This document shows, one piece after another, positions 16,562 to 32,479 of a stretch of 64,000 nucleotides of DNA (positions are counted from its first letter, which is position 1; the number at the start of each line of letters is the position of its first letter). Source of the stretch: Cyclobacterium plantarum (GTDB lineage: Bacteria; Bacteroidota; Bacteroidia; Cytophagales; Cyclobacteriaceae); the NCBI RefSeq assembly GCF_011290685.1, contig NZ_JAANYN010000007.1, forward strand, positions 62,001 through 126,000, read 5' to 3'. A program made the position numbers and the translations under genes. Under the pieces are notes generated by a model. That model had not been told where the DNA came from. It saw only the letters and a list, made by a program, of their open reading frames with translations, and searched no databases.

Positions 16562-18307
16562 TTAGTAGCCGGGATTTTGTACCAGGAAACCTTCTTCGTT
16601 GGAGGCTCCGTCGATGGCTCGTTGCGGGATGGGAAACAGTCGTTTGTTTGGGTCGCTATCGGTTTTTCCCGTCCAGCTGTCTTCGTATTTTCCGTACCTG
16701 ATCTGATACACCCTCCGAAGACCTTCCCAATAGAGTTCGAAACCGGTCTCCCTGAAAAGAATATCCAAATCAATGCCATTCAGCGGGGCAGGTGTCTGGG
16801 CAGGGCGTGCATTTCTGGAAGTTCTAAGGGTGTTCACATCAGCTAGTGCGGCGGTATTGTCCCCCTTACGAAATTGGGCCTCGGCACGCATCAGGTAGAT
16901 TTCTCCCAATCGGATCAACACAATGTCCACGCTACTGTTGCTGCAGCAGTTGGGTGCTGTTCGGCTGAATTGGTATTTGGAGAAGCGGTGACCGGTATTG
17001 TGAAGGCTGCCTTCGTTGGTGAAATCCACCTGGAAGGTATGGTCCACATAGCGAATGTCAGCACCACTACTCCTTCGGTTGATCACCGGATATATTCTGA
17101 CCTTTCCATCTTCGCAGGTGAGAATATTGCCGCTATCATCTTTTCTGGGACCCCAAATGATCCCCCTGAGCAGGCCACGGTCCATTTCAAATTCTTCTGC
17201 CTCCACACAATAGTAATGGTCAGCGTCATTGTTTGGATTTACACCGGTCAGATCCCTGAGATTTTCTGGTATGATGGTATTTTCCTGAAAAAAACGAGCG
17301 TCTGCCTCAGCAGGGTCCACATTTCCATAAGCATTGTACCAGCTCATAATGAAATCCGGGGTTGCGGCCACGGCATCCGTTCCCCGCGTGTTGGGGAATT
17401 CGGGTCTGGGTATCTGATCACCTGAAATCGACCAATATTGCCATCGGCTATGTTCTGTTTGCAGTACACCCCGTTGATCGAGTGAAAAAATGATCTCTGG
17501 ATTGGTATTATTATCGTCATTGAACAAGTCAAAGTATTCCGGCGAAAGGGAGTAAGGGCCATTGATAATATTGGTAGTATATTGAATTACCTTGTCCATG
17601 TCTTCCGATCTGAAATCCGGGGTTCCGTAAGGATCTCTATACACCGCCGCATTCAAATACAAGCGTGCCAATAAGGCTTCTACAGCAAATTTGTTCATTC
17701 GCCCGGGACCGCTGTTGCTACTGATCACATCGACCACGGATAGAAGTTCTGTTTCCAGGTAGTCCAGGGCCTCCTGTGTTCTGAGTATTTCTGATTGCTG
17801 GTCAGTGGCGTCTTTTTTGAACACAAGTCCCCAATTATCCAGAGCCAGCATGTTCAAATAAGCTTTCATGGCGATCATTTCGTACAGTGGATTTTGGGCG
17901 TTGCTATTGCCGTTTTCCACTTCCAAACGCAATTGCTCTTCTGCAGTCACAGCCCTGGACAAGGTCAGGGTAATAAAGGTCCAGGCGTCACCCACCAAAC
18001 TGTTTCCCGGAGTCATCAGGTGCTGATGGACGGCGATAAATTTTCCGCCATCAAACCAGTCTGTTCCACCGCGATAGGGAAGAATTCCCTCGTCAGAGGC
18101 GACTTCCTGAAGTCCAAAATTAACGGTATGCAGCCATACCTGACGCAGCATTCCGTACACAGGGGCAATAGACCCGCTGACAATTTCCGCCTGCCCGGTT
18201 CCAGTCAATGATTCATCCAGGACTTGTTCCTCCAGATTCGTGCAACTTAGAAATGCCAGGAAGAAAGCAGCAGTTGGAATAAATTTTCTTAAACGTATCG
18301 TCTTCAT
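16562..18307 (-). CDS. SusD/RagB-type lipoprotein (581 residues)
   Basis: The surface lipoprotein partner of the SusC gene just upstream. MKTIRLRKFIPTAAFFLAFLSC ends in a lipobox with cysteine 22. A helical TPR-like body follows, and the C-terminal half has the segment ILFRETGFELYWEGLRRVYQ before the terminal VQNPGY. At 581 residues it is longer than the other two SusD proteins here. The ATG at 18305-18307 starts the signal peptide; an in-frame codon at 18346 would prepend 13 residues and is rejected. The distance to the SusC stop is 45 bases. Confidence 0.94.
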   Translation of the reverse strand: MKTIRLRKFIPTAAFFLAFLSCTNLEEQVLDESLTGTGQAEIVSGSIAPVYGMLRQVWLHTVNFGLQEVASDEGILPYRGGTDWFDGGKFIAVHQHLMTPGNSLVGDAWTFITLTLSRAVTAEEQLRLEVENGNSNAQNPLYEMIAMKAYLNMLALDNWGLVFKKDATDQQSEILRTQEALDYLETELLSVVDVISSNSGPGRMNKFAVEALLARLYLNAAVYRDPYGTPDFRSEDMDKVIQYTTNIINGPYSLSPEYFDLFNDDNNTNPEIIFSLDQRGVLQTEHSRWQYWSISGDQIPRPEFPNTRGTDAVAATPDFIMSWYNAYGNVDPAEADARFFQENTIIPENLRDLTGVNPNNDADHYYCVEAEEFEMDRGLLRGIIWGPRKDDSGNILTCEDGKVRIYPVINRRSSGADIRYVDHTFQVDFTNEGSLHNTGHRFSKYQFSRTAPNCCSNSSVDIVLIRLGEIYLMRAEAQFRKGDNTAALADVNTLRTSRNARPAQTPAPLNGIDLDILFRETGFELYWEGLRRVYQIRYGKYEDSWTGKTDSDPNKRLFPIPQRAIDGASNEEGFLVQNPGY

Positions 18308-18352
18308 CTGATTCGTGTTTTTTGAGATTTTTATACCTTGCTTCAAGGTTTA

Positions 18353-21300
18353 TTAAAAGGTTACATTAAAGTTGACCATAAAAGTCCTTGCCCGAGGGTA
18401 GGTAAATCGGTCAATTCCAAAGGTTTGAATACCGGCAGTAGTTGACCCTGTATTGACCTCTGGGTCAAATCCGGTGTAATCCGTGAGGACAAAAAGGTTT
18501 TGGCCGGTTAGGGATACACGGATCGCCTGGAATGCATTGCCTGCTCCAATCCGAGTAGGATCCAAATTGTATCCCAAAGTCGCATTGTTGAGCCTGAAGA
18601 ATGCCCCGTTTTCCAGGAACCGGGTTGACACGGTATTGGAGTTGTTGAATGACTCCTCTGGAAACTGAATCGCAAAATCAGTAGTATTATTGGATCTGGA
18701 AAGTTGGGCCTTGGTGAAGAGCGACATGTTGGTGTGGTTGTAGATCTTATTTCCAGCTGCTCCGTTGAAGTTCAAACCCAGGTCAAAATTTCTATATCGG
18801 AAATTGGTATTGATTCCATAGATAACCTTAGGTATGGCACTTCCTACTACCGCCCGGTCGTTGTCGAGGATTTCTCCATCACCATTGGTATCCACAAATC
18901 GGTTTAGCCCATCTTCACCAATCCCGTCAAACTGCAGCATGTAAAATGCCCCAATCGGTTGATTGTTGATATAGCCATTGATGGTAGCACCTGTCTGTCC
19001 GGCACCCTGAGCAGCACCTGTGGTCAATACCGAGTAAGGAGAGTCCCGTACTTCATTCTGGATAAAGGTGATATTGCCTCCAATGTCATACGAAAAGCCC
19101 TGTCCTGACATACTGCTGTAATTCAAAGCCAATTCGACGCCACTGTTAACTATTTTCATGTCGTCAATATTGTCCCAAAACGTAGAGGTAGGCTGTACCG
19201 GGTCGGCAGGAACTACCTCCAGCAAAATATTGGAGGACACCTTGTTGAAATAATCCACCGTACCGCTCAGGCGATTGTCGAGAAAAGCAAAGTCAAGGCC
19301 CAGATCAAACTGGGTGGATACTTCCCACTGCAGATTTGGATTGGCTAACCGGGTAAAAACAATCCCATAAGGATAGCTGTCCAGGGTATTGCCATCGGTA
19401 TCAATCGGATAGGTGTTGAGACTACCCGCTCCTGTAGCCAATCGGTCCTCGGAGAAACTTGCTTTGGTGATTTTTGAAGGAATCTCCTGGTTTCCTGTTT
19501 GGCCCCAGCTTGTTCGGAGTTTCAGGTTGTCGAAAACCGAATTGGCCATGAAATCTTCCTTATTCAGGTTCCAACCCAGCGCAAGTGAGGGGAAGTAACC
19601 GTATTTATTGTTTGCACCGAATTTGGAAGAACCATCAGCACGGAAGGTTGCCGTAAACAGGTACTTTTCGGCAAAGGTATAATTTACCCGGCCAAAGAAG
19701 GATTGCAACTTATTTCGGGTAGCGGAGGAGTTGACAGTAGTCGGAAACTCGCTGGTGCTGTTGTGGTCCTGGTACCGTGGGTCAATGTTGTTTGCAGCAA
19801 AGCCTCGGGAGGAAGTCCTTCGAAACTCATCCAAAAAGGTCTGGTAGGAATGTCCTGCCAGGACCGTGAAATTGTGCTGGTAATTGTTCCAATTATAAGT
19901 TAGTGTATTCTCGACAAGCCTGTTCGTATTGGCAGTAATCAGCTCATCCAAAGTACCATCTGAGACATTGGATTCGTTCACCACTTCTGTATAAGGCCTG
20001 TATTGAATATAGCGGGAGGTATTGGAATAATCCACACCAATATTCATCTTATAGGTTAGTCCCTCGAAGATTTCGAAAGAGGGAGAAATGGTAGCCAATA
20101 TCCGGTTGTTTGCCGCATCATCACTGTAGAGCTCATTTCGCTTCAGCGGGTTGAGGGCATTGGTATTAAGCAGTGTGGGCTCACCATTGGTGAATGCAGG
20201 AATGGTCGGATTCAAATACAGCATATCGCTTGAGATGGAGCCGATTGCCGGTCGTAAATTTTCTGTAAACGAGGCGGTCATATTGTAGTCCACGATCAAC
20301 CTTCCCTCGAAGGCCTTCTGGTTCATATTCAGCTTTCCCGAATACCGCGTAAGTTCACTGTTTTTTAAAATACCCTCCTGATTCTGATAGCTTAGCGAGG
20401 CGAAATAGGAGAATTTGCCCGTATTTGCTCCACTCATGGAAAGGTTGTAATCCTGAGAGCGCCCCACCTGCGTCAGTTCATCCTGCCAATTGGTATTACC
20501 TCCGAAATCTTCCAATGCCCCGCCCACGGCCTGCACCTGCCGGCGAAATTCATCGGCATCGAAGACGTCAATCTGGTTGCTCATTGAAGACCAGGCAGTG
20601 GAGGCAGAAAGATTTATCTGGGATGTTCCTGACTTTCCCTTTTTGGTGGTAATTACCACCACACCATTTGAAGCGCGGGATCCATACAGGGCTGTGGCAC
20701 TTGCATCCTTCAATACATCGATGCTGGCAATGTCATTTGGATTTAAAAAATTAAGCGGGTTGGAAGCAATACCGGTATCGGAATTGTCAAGAAGAAATCC
20801 ATCCAAAACGTAAAGGGGTTGCGTTCCCGAGCGCAAACTACCAATCCCGCGGATAATTACGTTTTGGTTGGCACCAGGTTCGCCACTGGTCGAAGTGATG
20901 TTTACCCCTGCAATTTTTCCTTGTAACAAATCCACCGGATTAGTGATTACACCCCGGTTAAAGTTTTCGCTTTTAACGGAGCCAATGGCACCAGTCACGT
21001 CAGATCGCTTTTGTGTACCGTAGCCTACCACGACCAATTCTTCCAACTGAGCAGCATCAGGCTCCAATTGAATTTCCAGGATAGATTGCCCGTTGACGGC
21101 CACTTCCTTACGCATATAGCCCACATAGGAAACCTGTAGAATGGCATCCTCTGGTACATCCAGGGAAAATTGCCCATCCAGATCTGTAACCGTGCCTGTT
21201 GTGGAGCCCTTTACCAGTATGGTAGCCCCGGGTAATGGCATGCCGGCTTCGTCGGTAACTGATCCCCGGATGGACTCTCGCAGGACTTCCTGATCGACCC

Positions 21301-21433
21301 TGGGCTTTATTGTTTCGATTTCGGAACCCAAAGCCGCTGCATCGAGCGGTAAAGGGTTTGCAGCTAAACCCGCCCAGAGGAAAGAACATGCGGCGGCATA
21401 GCGGATTTTTGATACGTGTAATCGTAGATCCAT
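18353..21433 (-). CDS. SusC/RagA-type TonB-linked outer-membrane protein (1026 residues)
   Basis: The start at 21431-21433 gives MDLRLHVSKIRYAAACSFLW, a signal peptide ending near AAALG. A carboxypeptidase-regulatory-like domain (GATILVKGSTTGTVTDLDGQ) is followed by LEELVVVGYGTQKRSDVTGA, the usual entry to the plug. DASATALYGSRASNGVVVITT and a long barrel end at the aromatic terminus ARTFMVNFNVTF. No STN domain is seen. The frame is open 29 codons upstream but contains the promoter. Together with the SusD gene it forms the import pair of a likely polysaccharide-use region that includes the propeller-GH29 enzyme further right. Confidence 0.95.
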   Translation of the reverse strand: MDLRLHVSKIRYAAACSFLWAGLAANPLPLDAAALGSEIETIKPRVDQEVLRESIRGSVTDEAGMPLPGATILVKGSTTGTVTDLDGQFSLDVPEDAILQVSYVGYMRKEVAVNGQSILEIQLEPDAAQLEELVVVGYGTQKRSDVTGAIGSVKSENFNRGVITNPVDLLQGKIAGVNITSTSGEPGANQNVIIRGIGSLRSGTQPLYVLDGFLLDNSDTGIASNPLNFLNPNDIASIDVLKDASATALYGSRASNGVVVITTKKGKSGTSQINLSASTAWSSMSNQIDVFDADEFRRQVQAVGGALEDFGGNTNWQDELTQVGRSQDYNLSMSGANTGKFSYFASLSYQNQEGILKNSELTRYSGKLNMNQKAFEGRLIVDYNMTASFTENLRPAIGSISSDMLYLNPTIPAFTNGEPTLLNTNALNPLKRNELYSDDAANNRILATISPSFEIFEGLTYKMNIGVDYSNTSRYIQYRPYTEVVNESNVSDGTLDELITANTNRLVENTLTYNWNNYQHNFTVLAGHSYQTFLDEFRRTSSRGFAANNIDPRYQDHNSTSEFPTTVNSSATRNKLQSFFGRVNYTFAEKYLFTATFRADGSSKFGANNKYGYFPSLALGWNLNKEDFMANSVFDNLKLRTSWGQTGNQEIPSKITKASFSEDRLATGAGSLNTYPIDTDGNTLDSYPYGIVFTRLANPNLQWEVSTQFDLGLDFAFLDNRLSGTVDYFNKVSSNILLEVVPADPVQPTSTFWDNIDDMKIVNSGVELALNYSSMSGQGFSYDIGGNITFIQNEVRDSPYSVLTTGAAQGAGQTGATINGYINNQPIGAFYMLQFDGIGEDGLNRFVDTNGDGEILDNDRAVVGSAIPKVIYGINTNFRYRNFDLGLNFNGAAGNKIYNHTNMSLFTKAQLSRSNNTTDFAIQFPEESFNNSNTVSTRFLENGAFFRLNNATLGYNLDPTRIGAGNAFQAIRVSLTGQNLFVLTDYTGFDPEVNTGSTTAGIQTFGIDRFTYPRARTFMVNFNVTF

Positions 21434-21492
21434 AAAATGTTGGTATTGGTTGAGTAATTGGTTGTTAACTAGCTGAATTAAAACACATTGGA

Positions 21493-21521
21493 CAAAAGTA
21501 CTTTTGTGACCCAGCGGCAAA
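21493..21521 (-). promoter_or_regulatory. Promoter of the second SusCD operon, with palindromic -7 region
   Basis: On the minus strand TACTTTTG (21500-21493) matches TAnnTTTG, and TTTG (21521-21518) lies 17 bases upstream. The -7 element is half of a perfect 14-bp palindrome CAAAAGTACTTTTG (21493-21506). The expected transcript start is about 50 bases before the SusC ATG. Confidence 0.5.
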
Positions 21522-21953
21522 AGTAGGCGAAAAAATGTTGTGCTTTGGCATGCATTAGCTAACAGGGAAAGGATTTAAAAATAAATTAATATTCGGCTGA
21601 AAAGCATAATCTAAAGGTAAAAAATCGATCAATTTAGCTTTATACTAAGATAGTATTTGAGGTATGGGACTTTGCTTCTGGTAGAAGAAATAGATAGGAA
21701 TCGGGTGGCCTACCTAACCCCAACAATCCAAGGCCTGATGAAAAGCGAGGGGACGGGTGCTCAGGCCCTATACCGCCCGCAGGATGAAGGATCCGTCGAT
21801 CTCGCTTTGTATGGTTTCAGTATCAGGGAAATTACATCCGTCGCCGGAAGAAAGTGTCGGTGCCCTCTTTTTCCAGACTGAGGCGTTTTGTTGACCATTT
21901 TGAAAAAGTGGAATGAACCACTATGGAAAAAAGCAGCGGATCGATTCCGCCCG
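21522..21953. other. Intergenic region
   Basis: The right-hand part is GC-richer and the left part AT-rich. Open frames on both strands (for example 21657-21881) show no family resemblance. It may hold the leader of the SusC gene and debris. Confidence 0.4.
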
Positions 21954-23711
21954 TTAGTTTTTCTTCCGGACTTCAAAAATATCAATCAATTTTCCATCTC
22001 CTGTATATACCCGAAGTTCGAGTCTGCCTAGGGTAATGGAGATCGTACCATAATGAAACCCACGGAAAGTTTTGGCGGAAAACGGGACCCGGTTAGGTGC
22101 AAAATCTTCCAGATTGCCCCCCATTCCTCCTACCTGCACATAGGTGATCCCTCTGTCAAAATCGATTTGATCTTGGTTCAATGGAAAGCTCCGCATGTAT
22201 GTGTGCAAATGCCCAAAAAACATCATGTCTACATCAAAATCTTCCAACAACCTCAATAGCGGCTGAAACCGCCTGTCTCCATAGCTTCCTTTTCCTTGCC
22301 AGGTATCGCCATAGTCATCCTCATCCATGGAGTAGGGAGCATGGTGCATCATCACAAATTTCCAGGGGCTTTTTGATTGAGAAAGTTCATTTTTGAGCCA
22401 TTCGTATTGGGCACCTCCTTTTTGAAGTTCACCGGGTTGATTGGAGTTGAGCACAAAAAATGTCGCAGGTCCATAATCGGTGCTGTTGCAGCCCAATGCA
22501 TTGGTTTGCGGATGATAGGCTTTATACCAGAAAAGGTCACCTTCTCCATTTCCTGCTACCGGTATATTCGGTATCCTTGAATAGAGCGCTGAAGAGCCTG
22601 GAAAAAATTCCTGTGTCCATTGCCATTTTTCGGCTTCTTTTCCTCCATCAGTAATGTCTCCAAGGTGCAATACCAGATCTACCCGTTCATCCCAAAGCTG
22701 CATTCCGATCTGCTCATTGATTTGGGGGCGGGATTCGGTATCGGACACCAGACCGACCAGAATCGGGGAATTCTTCTCCGGAGCCGTACGAAACGTTAAT
22801 GGGCCGCTTTTTAGGATGTTTCCCTTTTCATCGGTTGCCTCAATCTCGTAAAAATACGGACTATTGGATTTCAGATCGTTCAATCGCACGTGGTAGCGAT
22901 TCTCATGTTGAGGCGATAGCTCTAAGGCCTCAAATGAACGGATATCTTCACCAAAGAGCAATTTTACCTCAGCTTTACGATCCAATTCAAAAGTGATTTG
23001 CATCTGATTGGGACCCGGGGCGTAGAGATAGGGTTCTGCCAGGAAATGAAATTTGCCGGGAATTCGAATTCCTTCTTTTTTCCAGAGCTGGTGCTGTCGA
23101 AATCGCTCTTTTACCCAATTTTCAGCCATCGCTCCTGAAAAAAATGACAGGTGTTTCACCCAGTGATCTAACTTCATAAAAGGCTCTTCCTGAAGGTAGG
23201 AACGCAGGAGTAAGACATGACCCCTGGCTTTTTCCCCCTGGAAAAGTAAATCGCCATTTTCGTAGATCCTCAGACCATTTTCTCCATTGGAAAGAACGAG
23301 GTGGGTAAAATACTTGCCCCAAAACCCTTGCGGCTCCTCGCGTCCGGGCAAAAGCCATTTTTTGTTCCAATTGGAAAGGACTGGTCGCTGCTCAAGAAAT
23401 ACTTCGAAGCCTATGGGCTGATTGACATGATTTATCAACCAAAACTCAATAATCCAAGGCTCCTCCGTATCCAGCATATCGTCTAAATCAATTTTATATA
23501 TGGCACTTGCCGGCTGGTTCACTATCGGAAAAATCTCCGGTTCCTGAAACAGCCGAAAAGGCCGTAAACTTAGCGAGTCTTGAAATAAGGGGCTATTGGC
23601 ATTTCGAGGCAGCCCTTTGTTTGGCCAAAACCAGCTTTCCCATTTGCTTTCCTGAGCAGTAGCATTCGGACAAATGAGCAAAACGAGCACTAAATAAAAA
23701 AGATTTTTCAT
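21954..23711 (-). CDS. Secreted purple-acid-phosphatase-like metallophosphoesterase with LamG-like domain (585 residues)
   Basis: The order is a signal peptide (MKNLFYLVLVLLICPNATAQ), a jelly-roll LamG-like region (about 60-200; ENGLRIYENGDLLFQG) and a fibronectin-type domain as in purple acid phosphatases (215-310). The catalytic domain runs from 315 to 570. Metal motifs are SDTE (323-326), LGDITDGG (350-357), GNGEGD (387-392), HHAPY (456-460) and GHLHTY (500-505). The usual GNHE is GNGE here, so one catalytic histidine is replaced by glycine, which may change the reaction or reduce activity. It probably works in the periplasm or outside the cell. It lies upstream of the SusCD pair on the same strand, but 520 bases away. 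Confidence 0.85.
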   Translation of the reverse strand: MKNLFYLVLVLLICPNATAQESKWESWFWPNKGLPRNANSPLFQDSLSLRPFRLFQEPEIFPIVNQPASAIYKIDLDDMLDTEEPWIIEFWLINHVNQPIGFEVFLEQRPVLSNWNKKWLLPGREEPQGFWGKYFTHLVLSNGENGLRIYENGDLLFQGEKARGHVLLLRSYLQEEPFMKLDHWVKHLSFFSGAMAENWVKERFRQHQLWKKEGIRIPGKFHFLAEPYLYAPGPNQMQITFELDRKAEVKLLFGEDIRSFEALELSPQHENRYHVRLNDLKSNSPYFYEIEATDEKGNILKSGPLTFRTAPEKNSPILVGLVSDTESRPQINEQIGMQLWDERVDLVLHLGDITDGGKEAEKWQWTQEFFPGSSALYSRIPNIPVAGNGEGDLFWYKAYHPQTNALGCNSTDYGPATFFVLNSNQPGELQKGGAQYEWLKNELSQSKSPWKFVMMHHAPYSMDEDDYGDTWQGKGSYGDRRFQPLLRLLEDFDVDMMFFGHLHTYMRSFPLNQDQIDFDRGITYVQVGGMGGNLEDFAPNRVPFSAKTFRGFHYGTISITLGRLELRVYTGDGKLIDIFEVRKKN

Positions 23712-24134
23712 CGGCTTAATTTCTTTTACAAGCTACGCCTTTTCGGGTTTCCTGAAGGTAAAGAAAAAATGAATGAATTGTGACATCTTACAAGATACTT
23801 AGGTCAGGTAATGTTATTGTGACTCGGGTTTTGTCCTTTTGTAATTGAGGCATTTCAAAGGGCGCGCAAAGCCTGGGCAGGGTGGTCAAGCCCAGGGAAT
23901 TTAAATTCTCTAAGCAGGGGGCGTTTCCAATTCGGAGGAGCAGGCAGAAAAAAACAACAGGGTACAAGCCCAAGATTCATTTTTGACTGCGTATCGACGA
24001 CAATTCCCGAAAAACACCTATCGAAACCACATAGCGTATAGGATGAGATTGGCCTTCCGTCTATTCCTAAAAAACATCAAAAGTTGTATATTGGTGAACA
24101 GTCACCATTAATCTAAAATTTCATTATCCATACC
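23712..24134. other. Divergent intergenic region between phosphoesterase and glycosidase genes
   Basis: It must hold the promoters of both flanking genes. No exact TAnnTTTG was found near either start. A GC-richer block at 23840-23960 has no recognisable coding content. Confidence 0.4.
24092..24107. promoter_or_regulatory. Possible operator TGGTGA-N4-TCACCA
   Basis: A perfect 6-bp inverted repeat with a 4-base centre lies 27 bases before the glycosidase start codon. Its position in the leader or over the start site would suit a regulator, but the motif is unassigned. Confidence 0.3.
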
Positions 24135-26486
24135 ATGTCCTCGTTCCGAAGCATTGCCTATATCGTCTTTTTCCTTTTTTGCCACCAACTGATGGCACAA
24201 ACCAACTGGCAAAACCCCATCCAAAAGCAGGGGCGGCTGGGCTCCCCAATGGTGGAAACCTCCCCTTTCGTGTTTAAGGACAAGTTGTACCTGCTGGAAA
24301 ACAACCAACGTTTTTGGGACATCCCCGGGGCCAAACCCGGAGACCATTTCCAGGAAGACGAAGTGCGCATCCGGGACCTTGCCACCAACCAAATCGTTTC
24401 CGTGCCGCTGAAAAACCATGCCTTCGGAACCGTCCTGACCTGGAAAGACCGGGTGTATGTGTTTGCCGGCTACTACGGAGAGAACAAGCCCTGGCGCAAG
24501 ATCACGGAAATCGTTGTCACCAGTTCGGCCGACCTGAAAGCATGGACCAAACCTGAAACCATACTGCAGGCCAATCCGGACGAACATTTTTTCAACACGG
24601 CCGTCTGCCGTGGTAAGGACGACTTCATTCTCCTCTACGAAACCAGCGATCCCCAATGGACTCCCTTTACATTTCGCTATGTCAGGTCCACAGACCTGAA
24701 AAACTGGCAGGAAATCCCGGAAGCCATTTATGGCACAGATAAGTATGTTGGTGGGCCTGCCCTGTATTACGAAAACGGATGGTACTATACCCTGTACCTC
24801 AAATCCCTTAACCCCGGATATGAAACGCACATTACCAGGTCCCGGGACCTGATCGACTGGGAAGATGCACCCGATGACAGACCGTTTGTCACCTTTGACC
24901 CAAACCATAAAAACATCCCCTTAATTGATCCACTTATATCCGAAAGCAATGCTTCCGATGTGGAGCTTTGCTATTTTCAGGGCAAAACAATTATCTATTT
25001 CACCGGAAGCGATCAAACTACAGGCGGAGACCTGCAACGGGCGACTTTTGATGGAAGGCCTGAGGAGTTGTTCGCTCACTTCTTTGCAGACAACATCGAG
25101 CAATCAACCGTTGCCCCCGCACATCAGGGAGATTGGTTGCCTGTGCTTGAGGCAGCCGATAGCAATCAGGAAATCTACAACAATCCTTCAAAGCCATTTC
25201 GAACCAGGCCCACAGAAGCTCAGTTGGCCTATCAGGAGCGGCAACTGGGGGCATTTATTCACTTTGGCCCCGCCACTTTTGTTGATTCAGACATGATGAG
25301 CGTACCTGCGGCGGAACTTTTTAACCCCAAAAGACTCGATGCCGAGCAATGGGCAAAAACAGCGAAATCCTTTGGTGCCAAACACATCGTACTTACAGCC
25401 AAACATCACAATGGCTTCTGTCTCTGGCCAACGGAAACCACGGATTATTCGGTAAAAAACGCTTCCTGGAAAAAGGGGAAAGGGGATATCGTCCGGGAGT
25501 TTGTGGATGCCTGCAGAAAATACGACCTGGAAATTGGTCTTTACCTATCCGGTGGAGACAAGCATTTTGGTTGTACCAGCACGCCTGACCCGCAAGGGAA
25601 GCGTAAAATTGTGGGTGACATCCACAAGTACTTCCCTGTTTTTCTGGAACAGCTTCGAGAATTGCTGACAAACTATGGAGCAATCTCCTATCTCTGGTTT
25701 GACGGTGCCTATGATCCTTTTGGATGGGATGTGATGGACCCTAAAACCAGGCAACCACTGGGAACGGCTTATGGCGATGCCATAGCGAACATGGTACGGC
25801 TGTTACAACCCCGGGCCATCATTATGGGAGGCACCAAGCCGGATGTACGGTGGTCGGGCAGTGAACAGGGCTGGGCAGAATACCCGCTGGAAAACGTCGT
25901 AAAACCAGGAGAAGGACTTGCCAAATGGGTTGGCCCTCAAAATGCAGGCTGGATACCGGCCGAGGCCAACCTGCACACCCGCTCAACCTGGTTTTGGAAA
26001 CCGGATTCGGAAAAAACCCTAAAAGATGTATCGTATTTAAAACAAGCTTACCTGGAAACGATAGGCAGGGGTGCGAATCTGTTGGTAAACATGACGCCGG
26101 ATACAAGTGGCCTTATCCCGACGGAAGAAGTTACTTTACTGGACAACTTTGGTAAATCGATAGAAAAAACCTTTACTAATCCAGTAGGAATCACCTCTTC
26201 TAAAAACCACCCTTCCTCAGAAATAACACTAACTCTCCCCCAAAGCCAGCTGGTGAATCTGATGCTCCTGGAAGAAGTATTGGGTAAAGGGCAACATATC
26301 CGGCAGTACATCCTGGAAGCCTGGCAGGATGGCCAATGGCAGCCTGTAGCAACCGGTGAGACGATAGGAAGAAAACGCATCCAATACTTTGATCCTATCG
26401 AAACGAAACACCTTCGGCTGCGCCTGTCCGGGTCGGGACCCCGTTTTGAACTTGATAATTTTGCCGTGTTCCGGTCTGAATTTTGA
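24135..26486 (+). CDS. Two-domain secreted glycosidase: five-bladed propeller domain fused to GH29 alpha-L-fucosidase (783 residues)
   Basis: A signal peptide (MSSFRSIAYIVFFLFCHQLM) ends before AQTNW. Residues 30-320 look like a GH43/GH117-type beta-propeller with repeated blades (FILLYETSD; STDLKNWQEI; SRDLIDWEDA). Residues 355-690 are a GH29 alpha-L-fucosidase: LGAFIHFGPATF, HIVLTAKHHNGF (418-428), and the nucleophile motif LWFDGAYD with Asp523. The last 80 residues look like a small beta-sandwich (HLRLRLSGSGP) as in discoidin-like domains. GH29 enzymes release fucose by a retaining mechanism. Whether the propeller is catalytic or only binds sugar is not clear. The protein probably degrades a fucose-containing polysaccharide imported by the neighbouring SusCD pair. 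Confidence 0.88.
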   Translation: MSSFRSIAYIVFFLFCHQLMAQTNWQNPIQKQGRLGSPMVETSPFVFKDKLYLLENNQRFWDIPGAKPGDHFQEDEVRIRDLATNQIVSVPLKNHAFGTVLTWKDRVYVFAGYYGENKPWRKITEIVVTSSADLKAWTKPETILQANPDEHFFNTAVCRGKDDFILLYETSDPQWTPFTFRYVRSTDLKNWQEIPEAIYGTDKYVGGPALYYENGWYYTLYLKSLNPGYETHITRSRDLIDWEDAPDDRPFVTFDPNHKNIPLIDPLISESNASDVELCYFQGKTIIYFTGSDQTTGGDLQRATFDGRPEELFAHFFADNIEQSTVAPAHQGDWLPVLEAADSNQEIYNNPSKPFRTRPTEAQLAYQERQLGAFIHFGPATFVDSDMMSVPAAELFNPKRLDAEQWAKTAKSFGAKHIVLTAKHHNGFCLWPTETTDYSVKNASWKKGKGDIVREFVDACRKYDLEIGLYLSGGDKHFGCTSTPDPQGKRKIVGDIHKYFPVFLEQLRELLTNYGAISYLWFDGAYDPFGWDVMDPKTRQPLGTAYGDAIANMVRLLQPRAIIMGGTKPDVRWSGSEQGWAEYPLENVVKPGEGLAKWVGPQNAGWIPAEANLHTRSTWFWKPDSEKTLKDVSYLKQAYLETIGRGANLLVNMTPDTSGLIPTEEVTLLDNFGKSIEKTFTNPVGITSSKNHPSSEITLTLPQSQLVNLMLLEEVLGKGQHIRQYILEAWQDGQWQPVATGETIGRKRIQYFDPIETKHLRLRLSGSGPRFELDNFAVFRSEF

Positions 26487-26830: not shown

Positions 26831-28597
26831 TCAAAAAACATATTGCACTCCCCCTGTGAACCCGGCATGCAGGGCAAATAAGCCCCTGCTGTTGCGCTTT
26901 TCGGCGATTACCCATCCACCAACAGGCCAGGCCCATGACTGGTCCAACACACTGAAGGCCATGGTAGGCCCGCCAAAATATTTGATGCGGCCACTTTGAA
27001 AGCCATGCAGCATTCTAAAGACATTGGAATGATTTGAAATCCCGGCAAAATCGCCAGACAACCGGTTGACCAGCTCAATATCCATAAAATAAGACTTTTT
27101 GCGGATGGAATGCCAGCCAAAGCCCAGATCCAGGCCGAAAAGGGTAATGGGATGCAGCCTCAGCCCTGTCCCCAGCAAGCCATAAAGTTTTCTCCCTCCA
27201 CTTCTCAGGCTGAGCTGGGCAAAGGAAGATTCATCCAGGCCAACAGCAATACTTTTTTCCCCATCCCCAACGATATTGACCAAACCCAGCGTGTAATCAC
27301 TGGAGGCTGCCACATTCACCAAACTCAATTGCAGGCCTCCAACGCTATCTGCCTTATTGAACAAGCCACTAACCTGGTAATCCACATTAGCCCCGGATTG
27401 ATTAAGTATTCCTGCAATCTGAATTTTGCCTGCACCTGCTTTTGTTCGGTTATACAGGCCCGCCACCTGGAACCCATCGGTACTGTAGGAGCGATTAGCC
27501 AAACCGGCAATCTGAATCCTGGCTTTACCAGCTACCTGGTTGACCAATCCTGCCACCTGTGCTCCATTCAGATCATTTCCCACCTTATTAAGTATTCCAG
27601 CCACCTGAAATCCAGACAGGCTATCATATACATTATTAAAGATCCCTGCAGCCTGAAAACCGGAAACTCCCCCGCCAACCAGGTTAAAGAGCCCTGCTGT
27701 CTGCATGCCAGTCACCATCCTTTGATTCATATTAAAAAGACCAGCCACCTCCATGCCTTCCACCCCCGCCGTATAGCCCCCCAATAAATTAAGGGAAAAA
27801 TTATTGATCATCTGGCTGCTAAATACTCCCTGGGTACTCAAGCCCGGAGTCAATGACATTTGAACGGGACTTTCTGCAAAAAAACCGGCCAGGTTTAGCC
27901 TTTGCATCCTTTGCCTGAACCCAATAAACATCCCTCCCCAAAAACTTTCTTCTAAATTGTCTGAGGATCCATTTCCCGGCAAAAAGCGGAATCTACCTCC
28001 TGCATGCTTATCCAGATCCACCTGTACCGGGGGAAGCAGTACAAAAGAGGTATCCCTGTATGCTTCCTTGCGTAAAGTCAGCCATACAGATGAGGGAGAT
28101 GCAGCTTTCAGTCTCAACTCAAAATTACCCTGCCCATCAGACATGGCATAGGCCAAACCATTTTTTTCATAAATACTGGCAGTGGAAACGGGCTCCGCTG
28201 TGTGATAGTCCCGTATCTGGCCTTGTATCACCAGTGATTTGCCATCTGCCACCATCTCCAGATCTGCATCTAATTTGCCCGGAGCATAACGGATGATCAC
28301 ATATGCATCATGCTCCCTGAATTCGTAGGAATCACCAAAAACTCCCTGAAGGAATCCTGCTAACTTACCCTGATAAGAAGAGAAAGGGAGCTTTGATTCC
28401 AAATCAATCAAAGAGCTTTGGTAAGAAAAATAAAACCCTTGCCTGCCGGCAATTTCCTCCATAGCCGATCCCACATTCCCCTCAGCAGTGCCGGAAAAAT
28501 CTATTTCTCTTAAAAGGTAATCCTGAGCGTAAAGCAGCCCCTGAAATGTGGACCCGATCGCTAAAAGTAGTAAAACACAAAACCGATTAAAACGCAT
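26831..28597 (-). CDS. STN-domain protein with AGLxN surface repeats, partner of an ECF sigma/FecR pair (588 residues)
   Basis: The order is a signal peptide (1-25), an STN domain (about 28-103; SAMEEIAGRQGFYFSYQSS, then YVIIRYAP) and a carboxypeptidase-regulatory-like domain (122-190). After a linker come nine [AS]G[LI]xN repeats from 285 to 414 with a period of 15-16 residues (for example GMQTAGLFN, GFQAAGIFN, GAQVAGLVN) and a degenerate tenth. A conserved C-terminal region (430-588) ends in an aromatic residue, as in outer-membrane proteins. In FecA-type receptors the STN domain touches FecR to report ligand binding, but there it is followed by a plug and TonB-dependent barrel; neither is recognisable here. 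The gene is 34 bases after fecR in the same orientation. The repeats resemble those of the LA_2272-type surface-repeat family; function is unknown. Confidence 0.88.
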   Translation of the reverse strand: MRFNRFCVLLLLAIGSTFQGLLYAQDYLLREIDFSGTAEGNVGSAMEEIAGRQGFYFSYQSSLIDLESKLPFSSYQGKLAGFLQGVFGDSYEFREHDAYVIIRYAPGKLDADLEMVADGKSLVIQGQIRDYHTAEPVSTASIYEKNGLAYAMSDGQGNFELRLKAASPSSVWLTLRKEAYRDTSFVLLPPVQVDLDKHAGGRFRFLPGNGSSDNLEESFWGGMFIGFRQRMQRLNLAGFFAESPVQMSLTPGLSTQGVFSSQMINNFSLNLLGGYTAGVEGMEVAGLFNMNQRMVTGMQTAGLFNLVGGGVSGFQAAGIFNNVYDSLSGFQVAGILNKVGNDLNGAQVAGLVNQVAGKARIQIAGLANRSYSTDGFQVAGLYNRTKAGAGKIQIAGILNQSGANVDYQVSGLFNKADSVGGLQLSLVNVAASSDYTLGLVNIVGDGEKSIAVGLDESSFAQLSLRSGGRKLYGLLGTGLRLHPITLFGLDLGFGWHSIRKKSYFMDIELVNRLSGDFAGISNHSNVFRMLHGFQSGRIKYFGGPTMAFSVLDQSWAWPVGGWVIAEKRNSRGLFALHAGFTGGVQYVF

Positions 28598-28631
28598 TTA
28601 CAAATCATCTTCCGAACACGAAATTTAGGAA

Positions 28632-29606
28632 TTATTCCACAATAATGTTATCACCTTGGCGGATTACGCTCAAATCCAGGGTCTCCCTGAGCACCTCCAG
28701 GTTTTTTTCTAAGGAGCCGTATTCCAGGGTGGTGGTAATGAACATATTTTGAGCCCTTTCTGAGGCTATTCTTATTTTGCTTCCATAAGCTTTATTGAGT
28801 GCCTCCACCAAAAGCGGCAGGGCGGTAGATTCAGCCACAAACTTTCCATCCACATAGTAGCGGAAAAGCTGGCTGCCGTTGATATCTTTTTCTATTGAAC
28901 CGGAGGAAACATCAATCACTGCTTTCTCATCCTTTTTCAGCAAGATCAACTGATCGCCGAATTCCACCCTCACCAGTCCGGCATCTACTATGACTTCAAT
29001 GCTTTCCGGTGATTGATGAACATGAAAAGAGGTCCCCAAAACAGTAACGCTAATGTCACCTGTGACAACCACAAAGGGTTTTGCCTTATTTTTTACTACC
29101 TCAAAATAAACTTCGCCTCCAGACAAGCTTACCAGCCGCTGCTTTCCAAAAAGCTTCTGTGAATAAGTCAAACGTGAATTTTTATTCAGTGTCAACACCG
29201 AACCGTCCATTAAAACCTCCTTTACAGGCTCCTCCAGGGCCTCAAACACTACTCCGGTATAAAGTGCCCTTACCGGTCCGGGCAAATTGCTCAATAAAAC
29301 CCAACCTCCAATCAGTACCATAAAAATTGCAGCGGCGACGCGGAGCCAAACCGGTAAATTTACCCTATGCCTGCCATGCCTGTTTTTCCCTTCCCTACTC
29401 ACCCTACGATCCTTGAATTGCTTCCAGGCCTCATTTTCATCTATCTCTGACTTTTCAAGTAAGCGGGCTGAATGCTCCCAAATCCATCTGAGCTGTTCAA
29501 AATAGTGACTGTTTCGGTCATCAGCTGAAATCCACTTTTCAACTTCCTCTGCCTCACTACTATCCGTCTCACCAAGCAGGTATTTTATCAGTAGTTGATC
29601 CTCCAT
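28632..29606 (-). CDS. FecR-type anti-sigma factor (324 residues)
   Basis: FecR proteins span the inner membrane, hold the ECF sigma factor inside and sense the STN domain of an outer-membrane receptor outside. An N-terminal cytoplasmic helical part (LLIKYLLGETDSSEAEEVEKW) is followed by one membrane segment near residues 86-107 (LRVAAAIFMVLIGGWVLL). Next is the FecR domain (VLTLNKNSRLTY; LVSLSGGEVYFEV; VTVLGTSFHVH) and a C-terminal STN-like half (FVAESTALPLLVEALNKAYG) typical of the Bacteroidota group. It starts 3 bases after the sigma-factor stop. Confidence 0.95.
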   Translation of the reverse strand: MEDQLLIKYLLGETDSSEAEEVEKWISADDRNSHYFEQLRWIWEHSARLLEKSEIDENEAWKQFKDRRVSREGKNRHGRHRVNLPVWLRVAAAIFMVLIGGWVLLSNLPGPVRALYTGVVFEALEEPVKEVLMDGSVLTLNKNSRLTYSQKLFGKQRLVSLSGGEVYFEVVKNKAKPFVVVTGDISVTVLGTSFHVHQSPESIEVIVDAGLVRVEFGDQLILLKKDEKAVIDVSSGSIEKDINGSQLFRYYVDGKFVAESTALPLLVEALNKAYGSKIRIASERAQNMFITTTLEYGSLEKNLEVLRETLDLSVIRQGDNIIVE

Positions 29607-29609
29607 AAC

Positions 29610-30197
29610 TTAAAATAAAAAGGTCCAGGTAATGATTATGAGGGGAAGGAACTCCGCAAGCTCCACTCTAAGGGTCCTCAGGGCTTTGCCCATATGTGCT
29701 TCCACCGTTTTGACAGAGAGACCGAGGCGCAAAGCAATCTCCTGATATTTTAGCTCTTCGATTCTGCTGAGCAGAAAAACCGTCCTGCACTTTTCTGGTA
29801 AACGGAGCAATGCATGGTTCAATTTCGACTGTATCTCTTTATCTTCCACTGAGTATGCCGCATCGGCACTCTTGATACTGGCCATTTCATACCTGTTTTG
29901 TTCCAAATGTTTCATTTTGACCTTCTCATGTTTGAGGTAATTCAGACTGTCATAATACACACACTTGTACAAATAGGCTTTCAGGGAAATGGAAATTTCC
30001 AGGGTATTGCGCTTTTCCCAAAGCTTCAGAAAAACCGTCTGTACGATTTCATTGGCTGCTTCACTGTCTTTCAGTAAGGCCTGCGCATAAGCATGAAGTG
30101 GTTTAAAATAGGTTTTAAACTGCGCTTCAAAAACCGCTTCATCAAGGAGCTCTGGCAAATCATCATTTTCTCCGGAAATTTTTCTCACTCCATCCAA
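29610..30197 (-). CDS. ECF-type RNA polymerase sigma factor (195 residues)
   Basis: The protein belongs to the large Bacteroidota ECF group paired with FecR. Region 2 is YAQALLKDSEAANEIVQTVF and LKLWEKR; region 4 is LPEKCRTVFLLSRIEELKYQ with the helix-turn-helix EIALRLGLSVKTVEAHMGKA. The start codon appears to be TTG at 30195-30197, since a TAA lies two codons upstream and the first ATG is far inside. A GTG three codons later is the alternative. The last 15 residues are hydrophobic (FLPLIIITWTFLF), which is unusual but common in this group. It heads the sigma-FecR-STN repeat operon. Confidence 0.94.
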   Translation of the reverse strand: MDGVRKISGENDDLPELLDEAVFEAQFKTYFKPLHAYAQALLKDSEAANEIVQTVFLKLWEKRNTLEISISLKAYLYKCVYYDSLNYLKHEKVKMKHLEQNRYEMASIKSADAAYSVEDKEIQSKLNHALLRLPEKCRTVFLLSRIEELKYQEIALRLGLSVKTVEAHMGKALRTLRVELAEFLPLIIITWTFLF

Positions 30198-30381: not shown

Positions 30382-31470
30382 TCAATGGATAGTAAGCTGA
30401 AGTCCGGCATTGACACCCCAATGAATGGCTTTATAAGAATTCGACCGATGCCTTTCCCAAACCCTCAGCTGTGCCAGGTCAGATCCCTTTTGGTGTTCGG
30501 TATTCATGTAATTCAAACTTGGTCCGGCGTATAGTTGCAAACTTCTGGAGAGCTTTAATACCGGTAATATCCTTAATCCAGTTTTAGAATATCCACCCCA
30601 TTTCCTGAAATTGGTCCCCCATAAATTACTGGCTTCCATATCCAGCCTGAATCTTTTGCTATCTGTAAGTTTGAAACCTATCCCTGTCTCCATGGCGTAA
30701 GGAAGATCATCATAGGAGAAATTAGATCCCAAACCAATGATCCCATACATGCGATCCCCCCCGGACCTGAAACTGAGCAACTGGGTGAGATTTTCATCTA
30801 CGGAAAAGCCAATTCTTTTTTCTCCATTGGCTATCAGATTGATGATGCCTATGGGGTAGTCACTGCTGTCAGCGATGTTGATCAAACCAGACAGTTGAAC
30901 TCCTCTTACAGTTTTGGCTTTGTTTACCAAACCTGAAATCTGAATGCCATTCACCTCTTCCGCCTGATTCATGATTCCAGAAAGCTGAATTCCTTCTACC
31001 TTTTGAGAAAAATTGGCAATCCCTGACAATTGGGCCCCACGGAGAGATGCTGTGGAGTTGGTAATCCCTGCCAGCTGAGAGCCGGACCCCTCCCTGGATC
31101 TATTCACCAATCCTGCTATTTGAATGCCCTTACTGGCCTGTTGGGCCTGATTGATAAGCCCGGCTACCTGAGCCCCCTTCAGCTCTCCGGAGACGGAAAG
31201 CCATAATCCTGCAGTTTGAAACCCTGTAGCATCCCCCTGTATGAGACCCCCAAGTCCATATATGGCCAGGCCTCTTTCACCGCCTGAAAGACCTGTCAAG
31301 GCATGGATGCTGACATCATTGGTATAGTCTGCCGCCTTAACACCATTTGTACTGATGGGGTATAAAAAACCCAGGTGGGCGGGTCGATTTTCCTGAGCCG
31401 CAGCCTCAAACAGGCCAAACAGCAAGGCAAATCCGCTGCTAATAGCGATCAAGCAATAACTTTTCTTCAT
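30382..31470 (-). CDS. AGLxN surface-repeat protein, paralogue without STN domain (362 residues)
   Basis: After a signal peptide (MKKSYCLIAISSGFALLFGL to AAAQ, 1-25) there is a short beta-rich part. Seven [AS]G[LI]xN repeats follow (103-198, period 15-16 residues; GIQIAGLVN, GAQLSGIAN, GVQLSGLIN), preceded by a degenerate GFQTAGLW. The rest (199-362) aligns with the C-terminal region of the protein at 26831-28597: DSSDYPIGIINLIANGEKRI against SSDYTLGLVNIVGDGEKSI, then SFRSGG against SLRSGG. The two are paralogues differing by the STN and linker domains. It lies 184 bases upstream of the sigma gene on the same strand and may be part of its regulon. Likely outer-membrane or surface location. 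Confidence 0.82.
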   Translation of the reverse strand: MKKSYCLIAISSGFALLFGLFEAAAQENRPAHLGFLYPISTNGVKAADYTNDVSIHALTGLSGGERGLAIYGLGGLIQGDATGFQTAGLWLSVSGELKGAQVAGLINQAQQASKGIQIAGLVNRSREGSGSQLAGITNSTASLRGAQLSGIANFSQKVEGIQLSGIMNQAEEVNGIQISGLVNKAKTVRGVQLSGLINIADSSDYPIGIINLIANGEKRIGFSVDENLTQLLSFRSGGDRMYGIIGLGSNFSYDDLPYAMETGIGFKLTDSKRFRLDMEASNLWGTNFRKWGGYSKTGLRILPVLKLSRSLQLYAGPSLNYMNTEHQKGSDLAQLRVWERHRSNSYKAIHWGVNAGLQLTIH

Positions 31471-31722
31471 GATTTTGTTCTTTTCAATTTGTGGTATAGT
31501 CCTGTGACAACCATATCATCAATTACCCTTACTCCAAAAATGATTTTTTTATGCTATGGGATAAAAGAGGCTGTTCAACTTAATTCAAAAAGAAAAAATA
31601 ATCGGAAATGAGAAAGATTGAAAAATCAGACAAACCGGATAATCATACCATCTATCCTTTAAATGTCTCGGGCCTGGCCTTTGGCGTCAATACTCCCTTT
31701 TGGGATAACGTTTTTGGTGAAA

Positions 31723-31884
31723 AACTGAGTTCGAATTATAAGACCGTCAATAAAAACCAATTGAATCGTCACTGCGAACCCTTTGTCGTGGTTATAGGAG
31801 TTGGAAAGGGTGTGGTAGTCTCGTTTGGCTAGAGATTCCCAGGGCTTTCACCGCTCAAAACCCGCTCTAAGCCTCGGAATGACG
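31723..31884 (+). repeat. Dispersed 162-bp intergenic repeat, copy A
   Basis: It matches copy B at 42257-42417 over its whole length with roughly 85-90 percent identity by eye. Both contain the string TGCGAACCCTTTGTCG and end GCCTCGGAATGACG. It begins AACTGAGTTCG. It lies in a non-coding hub and has no transposase gene. Confidence 0.85.
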
Positions 31885-32174
31885 TGTTTATTAAACACCT
31901 GTAAATCAATGTGTTAAAAAAAAACACTATCATCCTGATTTGTGTATTTTCTAAATACTTAGCCTACCGGTGACGAAATTGAATCAGTTATTTTTGATAA
32001 AGAAGAAACCCTAAAAAATCTGTTAAAAAAAGAAGAAATATATTTAAAATACGCATAGAGGGCTGGCCTGACAAAAAACCGAGCCTGTCCCGATTTTTTT
32101 CGGGAGGGTGCGGCAGGTCGGCGGGGGGAAGGATTTTTTTGTCTTGATTTCCTGCCCTCCGGGAGGCGGGTTTG

Positions 32175-32200
32175 GTACTTTTTGATCAAGCAAAAAGTAC
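32175..32200. repeat. Perfect hairpin GTACTTTTTG-N6-CAAAAAGTAC
   Basis: The 10-bp arms are fully complementary. Similar hairpins occur as repeated intergenic elements in related genomes, as I recall; there is only one in this window. It has no run of T to suggest a terminator. Confidence 0.6.
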
Positions 32201-32335
32201 AATAAAAACATGATAAAATACCAAAAATAACCTTTAACTCCCAATTATCCATTAACCAATGAGACATTTATTTTCCCAAATAGCTAATTTTAAATCCTGA
32301 TAAAACGAACATCCCTACATATTCCAAAAACCTAT

Positions 32336-32418
32336 CGTCATTCCGATTTCTGCGTTTTTTAAAATGTTAGGTCTTGGAATGACAGTTTTTTAACGAAATT
32401 CAGTTGAATTCCGGTTAA
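32336..32418 (+). repeat. Short member of the dispersed repeat family, copy C
   Basis: CGTCATTCC and GGAATGACAG form an inverted repeat around a 34-base centre. The segment then ends with TTTTTTAACGAAATTCAGTTGAATTCCGGTT-like sequence that matches the right end of copy B (42418-42449). It looks like an internally deleted copy. Confidence 0.65.
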
Positions 32419-32422
32419 AAGC

Positions 32423-32457
32423 CAAAAAAAAGCCATCCTGAAAAAATCTGGATGGCT
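32423..32457 (-). terminator. Terminator of pdhA
   Basis: AGCCATCC and GGATGGCT pair around an 11-base loop. On the minus strand the hairpin is followed by eight T. It lies about 22 bases after the pdhA stop codon. Confidence 0.8.
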
Positions 32458-32479
32458 CAATAAACTTATTCAAAATCGA

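Follow-up and report, generated by a model that had tools for sequence, protein, structure and literature searches.

An ECF Sigma/FecR Operon of Cyclobacterium plantarum with Its STN Domain on a Predicted Stalked Outer-Membrane Barrel Rather Than on a TonB-Dependent Receptor

Introduction

Signaling between an STN domain and FecR is usually understood as a nutrient receptor reporting its own substrate. Among the described systems closest to the one considered here, VreA/VreR/VreI (PUMA3) of Pseudomonas aeruginosa pairs an extracytoplasmic function (ECF) sigma factor and its regulator with an STN protein that has no barrel, and the regulon of the system is not one of iron uptake; VreA itself, of 23 kDa, is mostly soluble and its C-terminus is TolA/TonB-like (PMC2729926). 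The Dma anti-sigma factors of Bacteroides have a C-terminal barrel; a single polypeptide combines the anti-sigma domain with a membrane helix, a disordered tether and the barrel, and the sigma factor is an ECF21 (PMC13088901). For FoxA/FoxR, the receptor signaling domain is reported to protect the anti-sigma factor while the signal is absent (PMC11637429).

Here, we analyze an operon in a 64,000-nucleotide stretch of the Cyclobacterium plantarum genome (contig NZ_JAANYN010000007.1, positions 62,001 to 126,000; hereafter the window), in which genes for an ECF sigma factor and a FecR-type anti-sigma factor are followed by a gene for an STN-bearing repeat protein (26831–28597). We propose, with a probability of about 0.72, that this is FecI/FecR-type cell-surface signaling with STN taken off the TonB-dependent receptor and placed on a stalked small barrel, with sensor and transporter split.

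Results

The sigma factor (29610–30197), FecR (28632–29606) and STN-repeat (26831–28597; 588 residues) genes lie side by side on the minus strand; 3 bases separate sigma from FecR, and 34 bases FecR from the STN gene. This confirms the coordinates, strands and spacing given in an earlier note on this DNA. The sigma factor is of the TIGR02985 type (Sig70_bacteroi1), scoring 161.7 bits against this NCBIfam model (cutoff 126.4), with PF08281 and PF04542 also above their cutoffs. FecR matches PF04773 above its cutoff (64.8 bits) and, over residues 256–323, FecR_C (PF16344; 27.5 bits, cutoff 24.4), which is expected to be the docking site for the STN domain. A profile search found 21 FecR-matching genes in the genome; for 20 of them the next frame is receptor-like (19 recognized by receptor profile and one by STN; at 10 of these 20 loci there is an STN-bearing frame of 1114–1200 residues), and the FecR gene at 28632–29606 is the only one with a repeat protein next. 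The linkage of a sigma/FecR pair to a non-receptor STN protein, as the earlier note had claimed, is thus the sole such case in this genome, and is widely conserved outside it (see below).

The protein encoded by 26831–28597, our proposed sensor/transducer, reads signal peptide, STN, SusC-type extension, 15–16-residue repeats and a predicted C-terminal barrel. Its STN domain (residues ~27–106; 28280–28519, minus strand) has no Pfam match to PF07660; among full-length proteins of the family, STN is matched in 16 of 21 at E ≤ 0.1, and 34 of 48 STN regions match PF07660 at E ≤ 0.01, the window protein being counted in both totals. The assignment comes from profile–profile comparison, in which seven Cyclobacterium STN regions matched 14 STN regions of FecR-linked receptors from the same genome with E 8.2e-6 and a probability of 84, while the best of ten column-shuffled controls reached E 1.1; two of the 14 receptor template rows (L200 and L208, L numbers being our labels for individual stretches) appear off-domain. 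Next comes a carboxypeptidase-regulatory/SusC N-terminal-extension-like immunoglobulin (Ig) domain (residues ~107–181; 28055–28279, minus strand), for which PF13715 is weak in the window protein (22.1 bits, cutoff 32.2) and is found in 20 of the 21 full-length proteins at E ≤ 0.1; three of the 21 match TIGR04056 at E ≤ 0.01, pointing to a SusC-like N-terminus. STN precedes the extension, as it does in 14 receptors of the genome by a joint STN and extension profile; the opposite order is stated for SusCs in PMC7782687.

The repeats, a predicted beta-solenoid at residues ~247–459 (27221–27859, minus strand; supported by spacing and models), include nine tandem [AS]G[LI]xN units at residues 285–410, spaced by 15 or 16 residues, with a tenth match at residue 518 out of register. 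Shuffling the window protein 2000 times gave a mean of 0.14 matches and a maximum of 3, which rules out a chance origin; against the LA_2272 surface repeat model NF047436, the protein scores 24.3 bits (cutoff 25). The C-terminal outer-membrane beta-barrel is predicted at residues ~470–588 (26834–27190, minus strand; terminal residue F). No Plug or TonB-barrel family matches the window protein at E ≤ 1, Plug is absent among the 12 families listed for the 21 full-length proteins at E ≤ 0.1, and residues 190–588 comprise repeats and a small barrel, not a TonB-dependent receptor. The STN domain, nine repeats and carboxypeptidase-like domain (weak in this protein) that had been read off the sequence are therefore borne out, as is the absence of a plug and receptor barrel.

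Structure prediction of this protein, as suggested in the earlier note, gave a low-confidence model (predicted local distance difference test, pLDDT, 50.8). A good model (pLDDT 83.5) was obtained for a repeat-only paralog encoded 184 bases upstream of the sigma gene (30382–31470, minus strand), which has a signal peptide, a beta-solenoid and an 8-stranded barrel and lacks STN. The C-terminus is accordingly predicted to be an 8-stranded OmpA/OmpW-like outer-membrane barrel, the best structure matches of the barrel being 8-stranded, and the paralog model has one strand per 15 residues. A Foldseek search of the paralog against the PDB gave a best E of 1.9e-3, with no match at or below 1e-3. The solenoid matches disagree, with left-handed helices (GlmU, LpxD) at a root-mean-square deviation of ~9–11 Å and tailspike and tapirin beta-helices at ~3–4 Å, and because they conflict over handedness, we call the repeats a solenoid only. 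Against solved structures, the solenoid–barrel profile retrieved only cystathionine beta-lyases (E 0.04–0.23), which we take as chance. By our own reading of the strands, the longest outer loop in the paralog model appears to be the last (residues ~325–344).

When the number of strands in a barrel is even, both termini lie in the periplasm, and STN needs to be periplasmic to meet FecR. Repeats lying between a periplasmic STN and an even-stranded barrel are thus less likely to be exposed on the surface than to form a stalk in the periplasm, and we consider on these models that they probably form such a stalk, which weakens the surface location previously suggested for them.

Matches came from 61 of the 395 genomes searched at phylum level and from 100 of the 247 at class level, some of the class matches being STN-bearing receptors. 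Stretches were picked by score and not by neighbors, and the counts below are no census. Of the 61 STN-repeat proteins, one is the window's and six are from Cyclobacterium loci; stretches taken from 38 of the 61 matched phylum genomes gave 17, and those taken from 40 of the 100 matched class genomes gave 37. Sigma and FecR genes lie beside 58 of these 61, and FecR beside 60; at first, 55 had both nearby on the same strand, and a six-frame check added L112, L119 and L129. By comparison, sigma and FecR are absent within 3 kb of all 27 STN-less repeat proteins (from 26 repeat loci without the STN form); one of these loci, L137, begins right at the edge of a contig, where an STN form may have been lost, and its receptor and repeat genes stand in the control set. 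Linkage in other genomes had been set beforehand as a test of the proposal, and it holds on these counts. Furthermore, 23 other sequences align to the window protein at 25–95% identity with a conserved C-terminus (the window protein is 95% identical to one in a Cyclobacterium metagenome-assembled genome), and the called frame exceeds 450 residues in 59 of 61 cases, L132 and L133 being split across two frames. In a tree of STN plus extension, from which L132, L133 and the near-identical L032, L034 and L035 were omitted, one supported branch (99/92) parts 56 STN-repeat proteins from 14 receptors, all of the latter from the window's genome; this fits a single origin of the STN-repeat fusion. The longest terminal branch is that of the L057 protein.

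A FecI-like consensus, ATAGGGGTA-N12-GTTGTC-N-TA, is common to regions upstream of sigma/FecR, paralog, receptor and DUF2807 genes, and we take its −10-like TGTC to resemble the fecA promoter form. A de novo spaced-word search upstream of sigma, receptor and paralog genes, with the near-identical L032, L034 and L035 left out, ranked GGGT-N15-TGTC first (56 of 111 regions, and 0 in each of three shuffles); it is also top in each gene class alone, although for sigma the overlapping GGGG-N16-TGTC reaches an equal count of 22. In the STN-form loci, the motif precedes 22 of 56 sigma, 14 of 59 FecR, 17 of 27 paralog, 18 of 33 receptor and 5 of 16 DUF2807 genes, and is found at 0 of 61 STN genes and 9 of 591 other open reading frames (ORFs); the sigma/FecR operon carries it in 36 of 61 loci. 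Stretches without the STN form have it at 0 of 27 repeat genes, 1 of 3 receptors (that of the window genome) and 0 of 352 other ORFs, and a reversed control motif gives 0–2 matches per class. The sites at other ORFs (eight in one count) comprise six before the gene divergent from the Cyclobacterium paralog and two before a gene for a relative of a 206-residue protein that resembles outer membrane proteins (OMPs; L112, L117). Across 40 genomes, exact TAGGGGTA-N14-TGTC occurs 62 times, compared with 10 for the reversed pattern; 26 of 31 sites examined precede sigma (6), receptor (8), repeat (3), DUF2807 (6) or 206-residue protein (3) genes, 21 of these 26 at 18–49 bases ahead of the guessed start, and some far from the operon.

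The receptor sharing this motif is a ~780-residue TonB-dependent receptor with a carboxypeptidase-like domain and a plug, in which no STN was found in nine of nine scanned (E ≤ 0.001), and which is present in 33 of the 61 stretches (31 on the same strand, two on the opposite strand only). DUF2807 proteins occur in 16 of 61 loci and in none of 28 other stretches, of which 26 are repeat loci and two are receptor stretches from the window genome. Because the receptor is present in 33 loci with the motif at 18, and an unlinked Cyclobacterium ortholog also carries a site, the earlier suggestion of sensing without substrate import becomes doubtful; judged from these sequences, import is probably an output of the system.

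The ~206-residue OMP-like family with an upstream dyad is seen in L166, L170, L171, L112 (6598–7290) and L117 (10132–10866), partly distant from the operon, and the L170 member has no Pfam match. STN-less repeat proteins of ~420–525 residues (L056, L058–L060, L062–L065, L067–L069 and others; family f24, another class) have no sigma, FecR or promoter dyad that we could find beside them, and their role must therefore be different or older.

Within the window, an ECF-type promoter-like site, AAGGGTAA-N11-GTTGTC (31506–31530, minus strand), lies 35 bp before the start codon of the paralog; it is the sole exact match in the genome and aligns in seven of seven Cyclobacterium sequences with small changes. 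The receptor of the window genome is unlinked (G000:C11:700591–702933) and has, 26 bases before its start, a site that departs from the Cyclobacterium form at two positions but matches GGGT-N15-TGTC perfectly. This receptor family occurs in 11 of 12 Cyclobacterium genomes, and its close ortholog (89–100% identical) in three of 12, all three with the dyad upstream. Across 14 receptor stretches from the 12 genomes, the strict dyad is upstream in these three, a GGGG-N15-TGTC variant is visible by eye in three (L218, L219, L221, the last with one strict dyad elsewhere in the stretch), no dyad lies within the 120 bases shown in six, and two (L217, L220) are unoriented. Genome-wide, the Cyclobacterium form with two mismatches allowed is not enriched (53 matches, compared with 98 for the control), and only the exact paralog site and the receptor site were used from that search. 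The short dyad occurs three times in the window against 1.34 expected; a count this near expectation means that the window alone proves nothing, and we place the weight on the comparison of loci. At the genome's FecR stretches the dyad is found in 0 of 21, including the 28632–29606 locus, whose site lies beyond the 1.5-kb flank; such flanks sometimes stop short of the sigma promoter.

A dyad also lies upstream of the gene divergent from the paralog in L032 (1214–1837), L033, L034 and L035 (each 1309–1932); the L033 gene encodes a fatty-acid hydroxylase (PF04116), with which the other three align. Window positions 31566–32476 have no DNA match to L032, and 31641–31718 show a 26-residue likeness to the C-terminus of the L032 divergent gene product. 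In L036 (1143–1763) and L037 (1237–1857), an unrelated 206-residue protein with a dyad upstream occupies the same divergent slot; it is START-like by eye, and the L036 copy has no Pfam match.

Elsewhere in the window, 16562–26486 resembles a polysaccharide utilization locus, with genes for SusD (16562–18346), a SusC-like protein (18353–21520; by sequence only), a calcineurin-like phosphoesterase (21954–23711) and, on the strand opposite to the rest, a fused alpha-L-fucosidase (24135–26486).

Discussion

The domain order, operon, linkage and common promoter motif are read directly from the sequences, and from them we infer the membrane topology, the STN–FecR contact, the pairing of sigma factor with motif and the direction of control. 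In the resting state, FecR would hold the sigma factor. The small barrel would sit in the outer membrane, its two ends facing the periplasm, and solenoid and SusC-type extension would carry STN toward the inner membrane as a rigid periplasmic stalk, allowing it to dock on FecR_C. An outer-membrane event (a ligand on the outer loops of the barrel, a partner receptor that changes state, or envelope stress) would alter the STN–FecR contact, whereupon FecR would be processed and the sigma factor freed. The latter would then read ATAGGGGTA-N12-GTTGTC, which in many relatives lies ahead of its own operon, and transcribe that operon together with the repeat-only paralog, the STN-less ~780-residue receptor, DUF2807 lipoprotein-like proteins and the ~206-residue OMP-like protein. 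Given the protection of the anti-sigma factor in the Fox system, loss of the STN–FecR contact may, by analogy, be the trigger.

We note, however, that several observations weigh against this proposal. The model of the STN protein is poor, with its STN region below pLDDT 50; against solved structures, STN reached FecA (1zzv) at E 0.8 only, ranked after two unrelated chains; and three of the 48 STN regions also match FecR_C, two folds that are easily confused at such distance. With respect to linkage, neither sigma nor FecR was found near the STN protein of L039, no sigma was found beside that of L109, and in L057 the nearest sigma gene is ~5 kb off, with FecR adjacent. The strict motif is at no system gene in 12 of 61 loci, and 28 of 61 stretches are without the ~780-residue receptor. 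Finally, there is no site upstream of the window's own sigma gene, only two of seven Cyclobacterium loci have one there, and no strict site was seen upstream of Cyclobacterium family receptors other than the close ortholog.

The distribution of the receptor also bears on an alternative in which the STN-less receptor senses the ligand and relays its state laterally, within the outer membrane, to the STN–barrel protein, which serves only as its signaling subunit. Its presence in 33 of 61 loci, the lack of STN in all nine copies scanned and the common promoter would all fit, but that promoter suits a target equally well as a partner, the receptor is missing from 28 stretches, and in Cyclobacterium it is unlinked, with a close ortholog in only three of 12 genomes. 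We therefore regard such a division of labor as unlikely. We are similarly doubtful that the STN–barrel protein does no sensing and stabilizes FecR as a feedback brake, with sigma induction ending the response and the signal reaching FecR by another route (a protease or envelope stress). The position of the STN gene in the sigma/FecR operon, for which 36 of 61 loci show the motif, agrees with this idea, as does the shielding of the anti-sigma factor from proteolysis by the Fox signaling domain when the signal is absent (PMC11637429); an outer-membrane barrel and long stalk would, however, be superfluous for a pure brake.

The view taken in the earlier note, of a surface-exposed repeat sensor that signals without any transport, finds support in the lack of a receptor gene in the window operon, in the 28 of 61 stretches without a ~780-residue receptor, and in the NCBIfam name of the repeat family, "surface repeat-containing", which is a name only and no test. 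With the repeats between a periplasmic STN and a predicted 8-stranded barrel whose ends are periplasmic, and with the motif at 18 of 33 receptors and at the Cyclobacterium ortholog, we consider it very improbable. Lastly, a decayed TonB-dependent receptor, whose broken SusC N-terminus happens to precede a repeat gene, would account for the SusC-like STN and extension (TIGR04056 in three of 21) but is refuted by the single frame from STN to repeats, the conserved C-terminus across 23 aligned sequences, the 59 of 61 intact frames and the one split in the tree.

Our preferred reading remains FecI/FecR-type signaling with STN on a stalked small barrel. More tentatively, and at somewhat less than even odds, these systems may form a distinct trans-envelope signaling class, widespread in Bacteroidota, in which a small non-transporter barrel signals conditions at the outer membrane or its surface to FecR through a rigid solenoid rod of variable length, with a one-promoter regulon of STN-less copies, a receptor without a signaling domain and DUF2807 proteins. 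If so, what these sigma/FecR circuits detect need not be the cargo of an attached transporter, AGLxN repeat proteins gain a functional setting, and the promoter pattern, with its 62 matches against 10 in the control over 40 genomes, would give a regulon defined by sequence.

Comparison with Known Systems

A search of the open-license literature found no description of an STN–solenoid–barrel sigma/FecR architecture. The earlier claim that no example has been described thus stands for the whole architecture within open-license papers but not for its parts, which have precedents in VreA (PMC2729926) and Dma (PMC13088901).

As in FecI/FecR/FecA signaling and STN-bearing SusC receptors, an ECF sigma gene adjoins a FecR gene, FecR carries a predicted C-terminal STN-binding domain (by PF16344), and STN lies with a SusC-type extension at the N-terminus of a predicted outer-membrane partner (by profile match in the window's genus). 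That partner is, however, not a TonB-dependent receptor: the N-terminal extension and STN of SusC/RagA proteins are found, whereas their Plug domain is not, and without the plug and 22-stranded barrel of FecA it would have no transport role of its own. Whereas fecIR is not autoregulated in Escherichia coli (PMC9249621), the motif is present at the operon in 36 of the 61 loci compared here. The LA_2272 and VC2662 families (NF047436, NF047437) share the AGLxN-type repeat, matching 13 and 9 of the 21 proteins at E ≤ 0.01, but their models are short (30 and 187 positions) and their names are without STN.

Compared with VreA, STN is here followed by a carboxypeptidase-like domain, solenoid and barrel, and a VreA-type C-terminus is not found. 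Like Dma, the system would link a Bacteroidota ECF sigma factor through the periplasm to a C-terminal beta-barrel; in contrast to Dma, the anti-sigma domain and the barrel are on separate genes, FecR and barrel being two proteins that would be joined through STN, with a solenoid as the tether. The system lies between VreA and Dma and resembles a two-piece Dma linked via STN.

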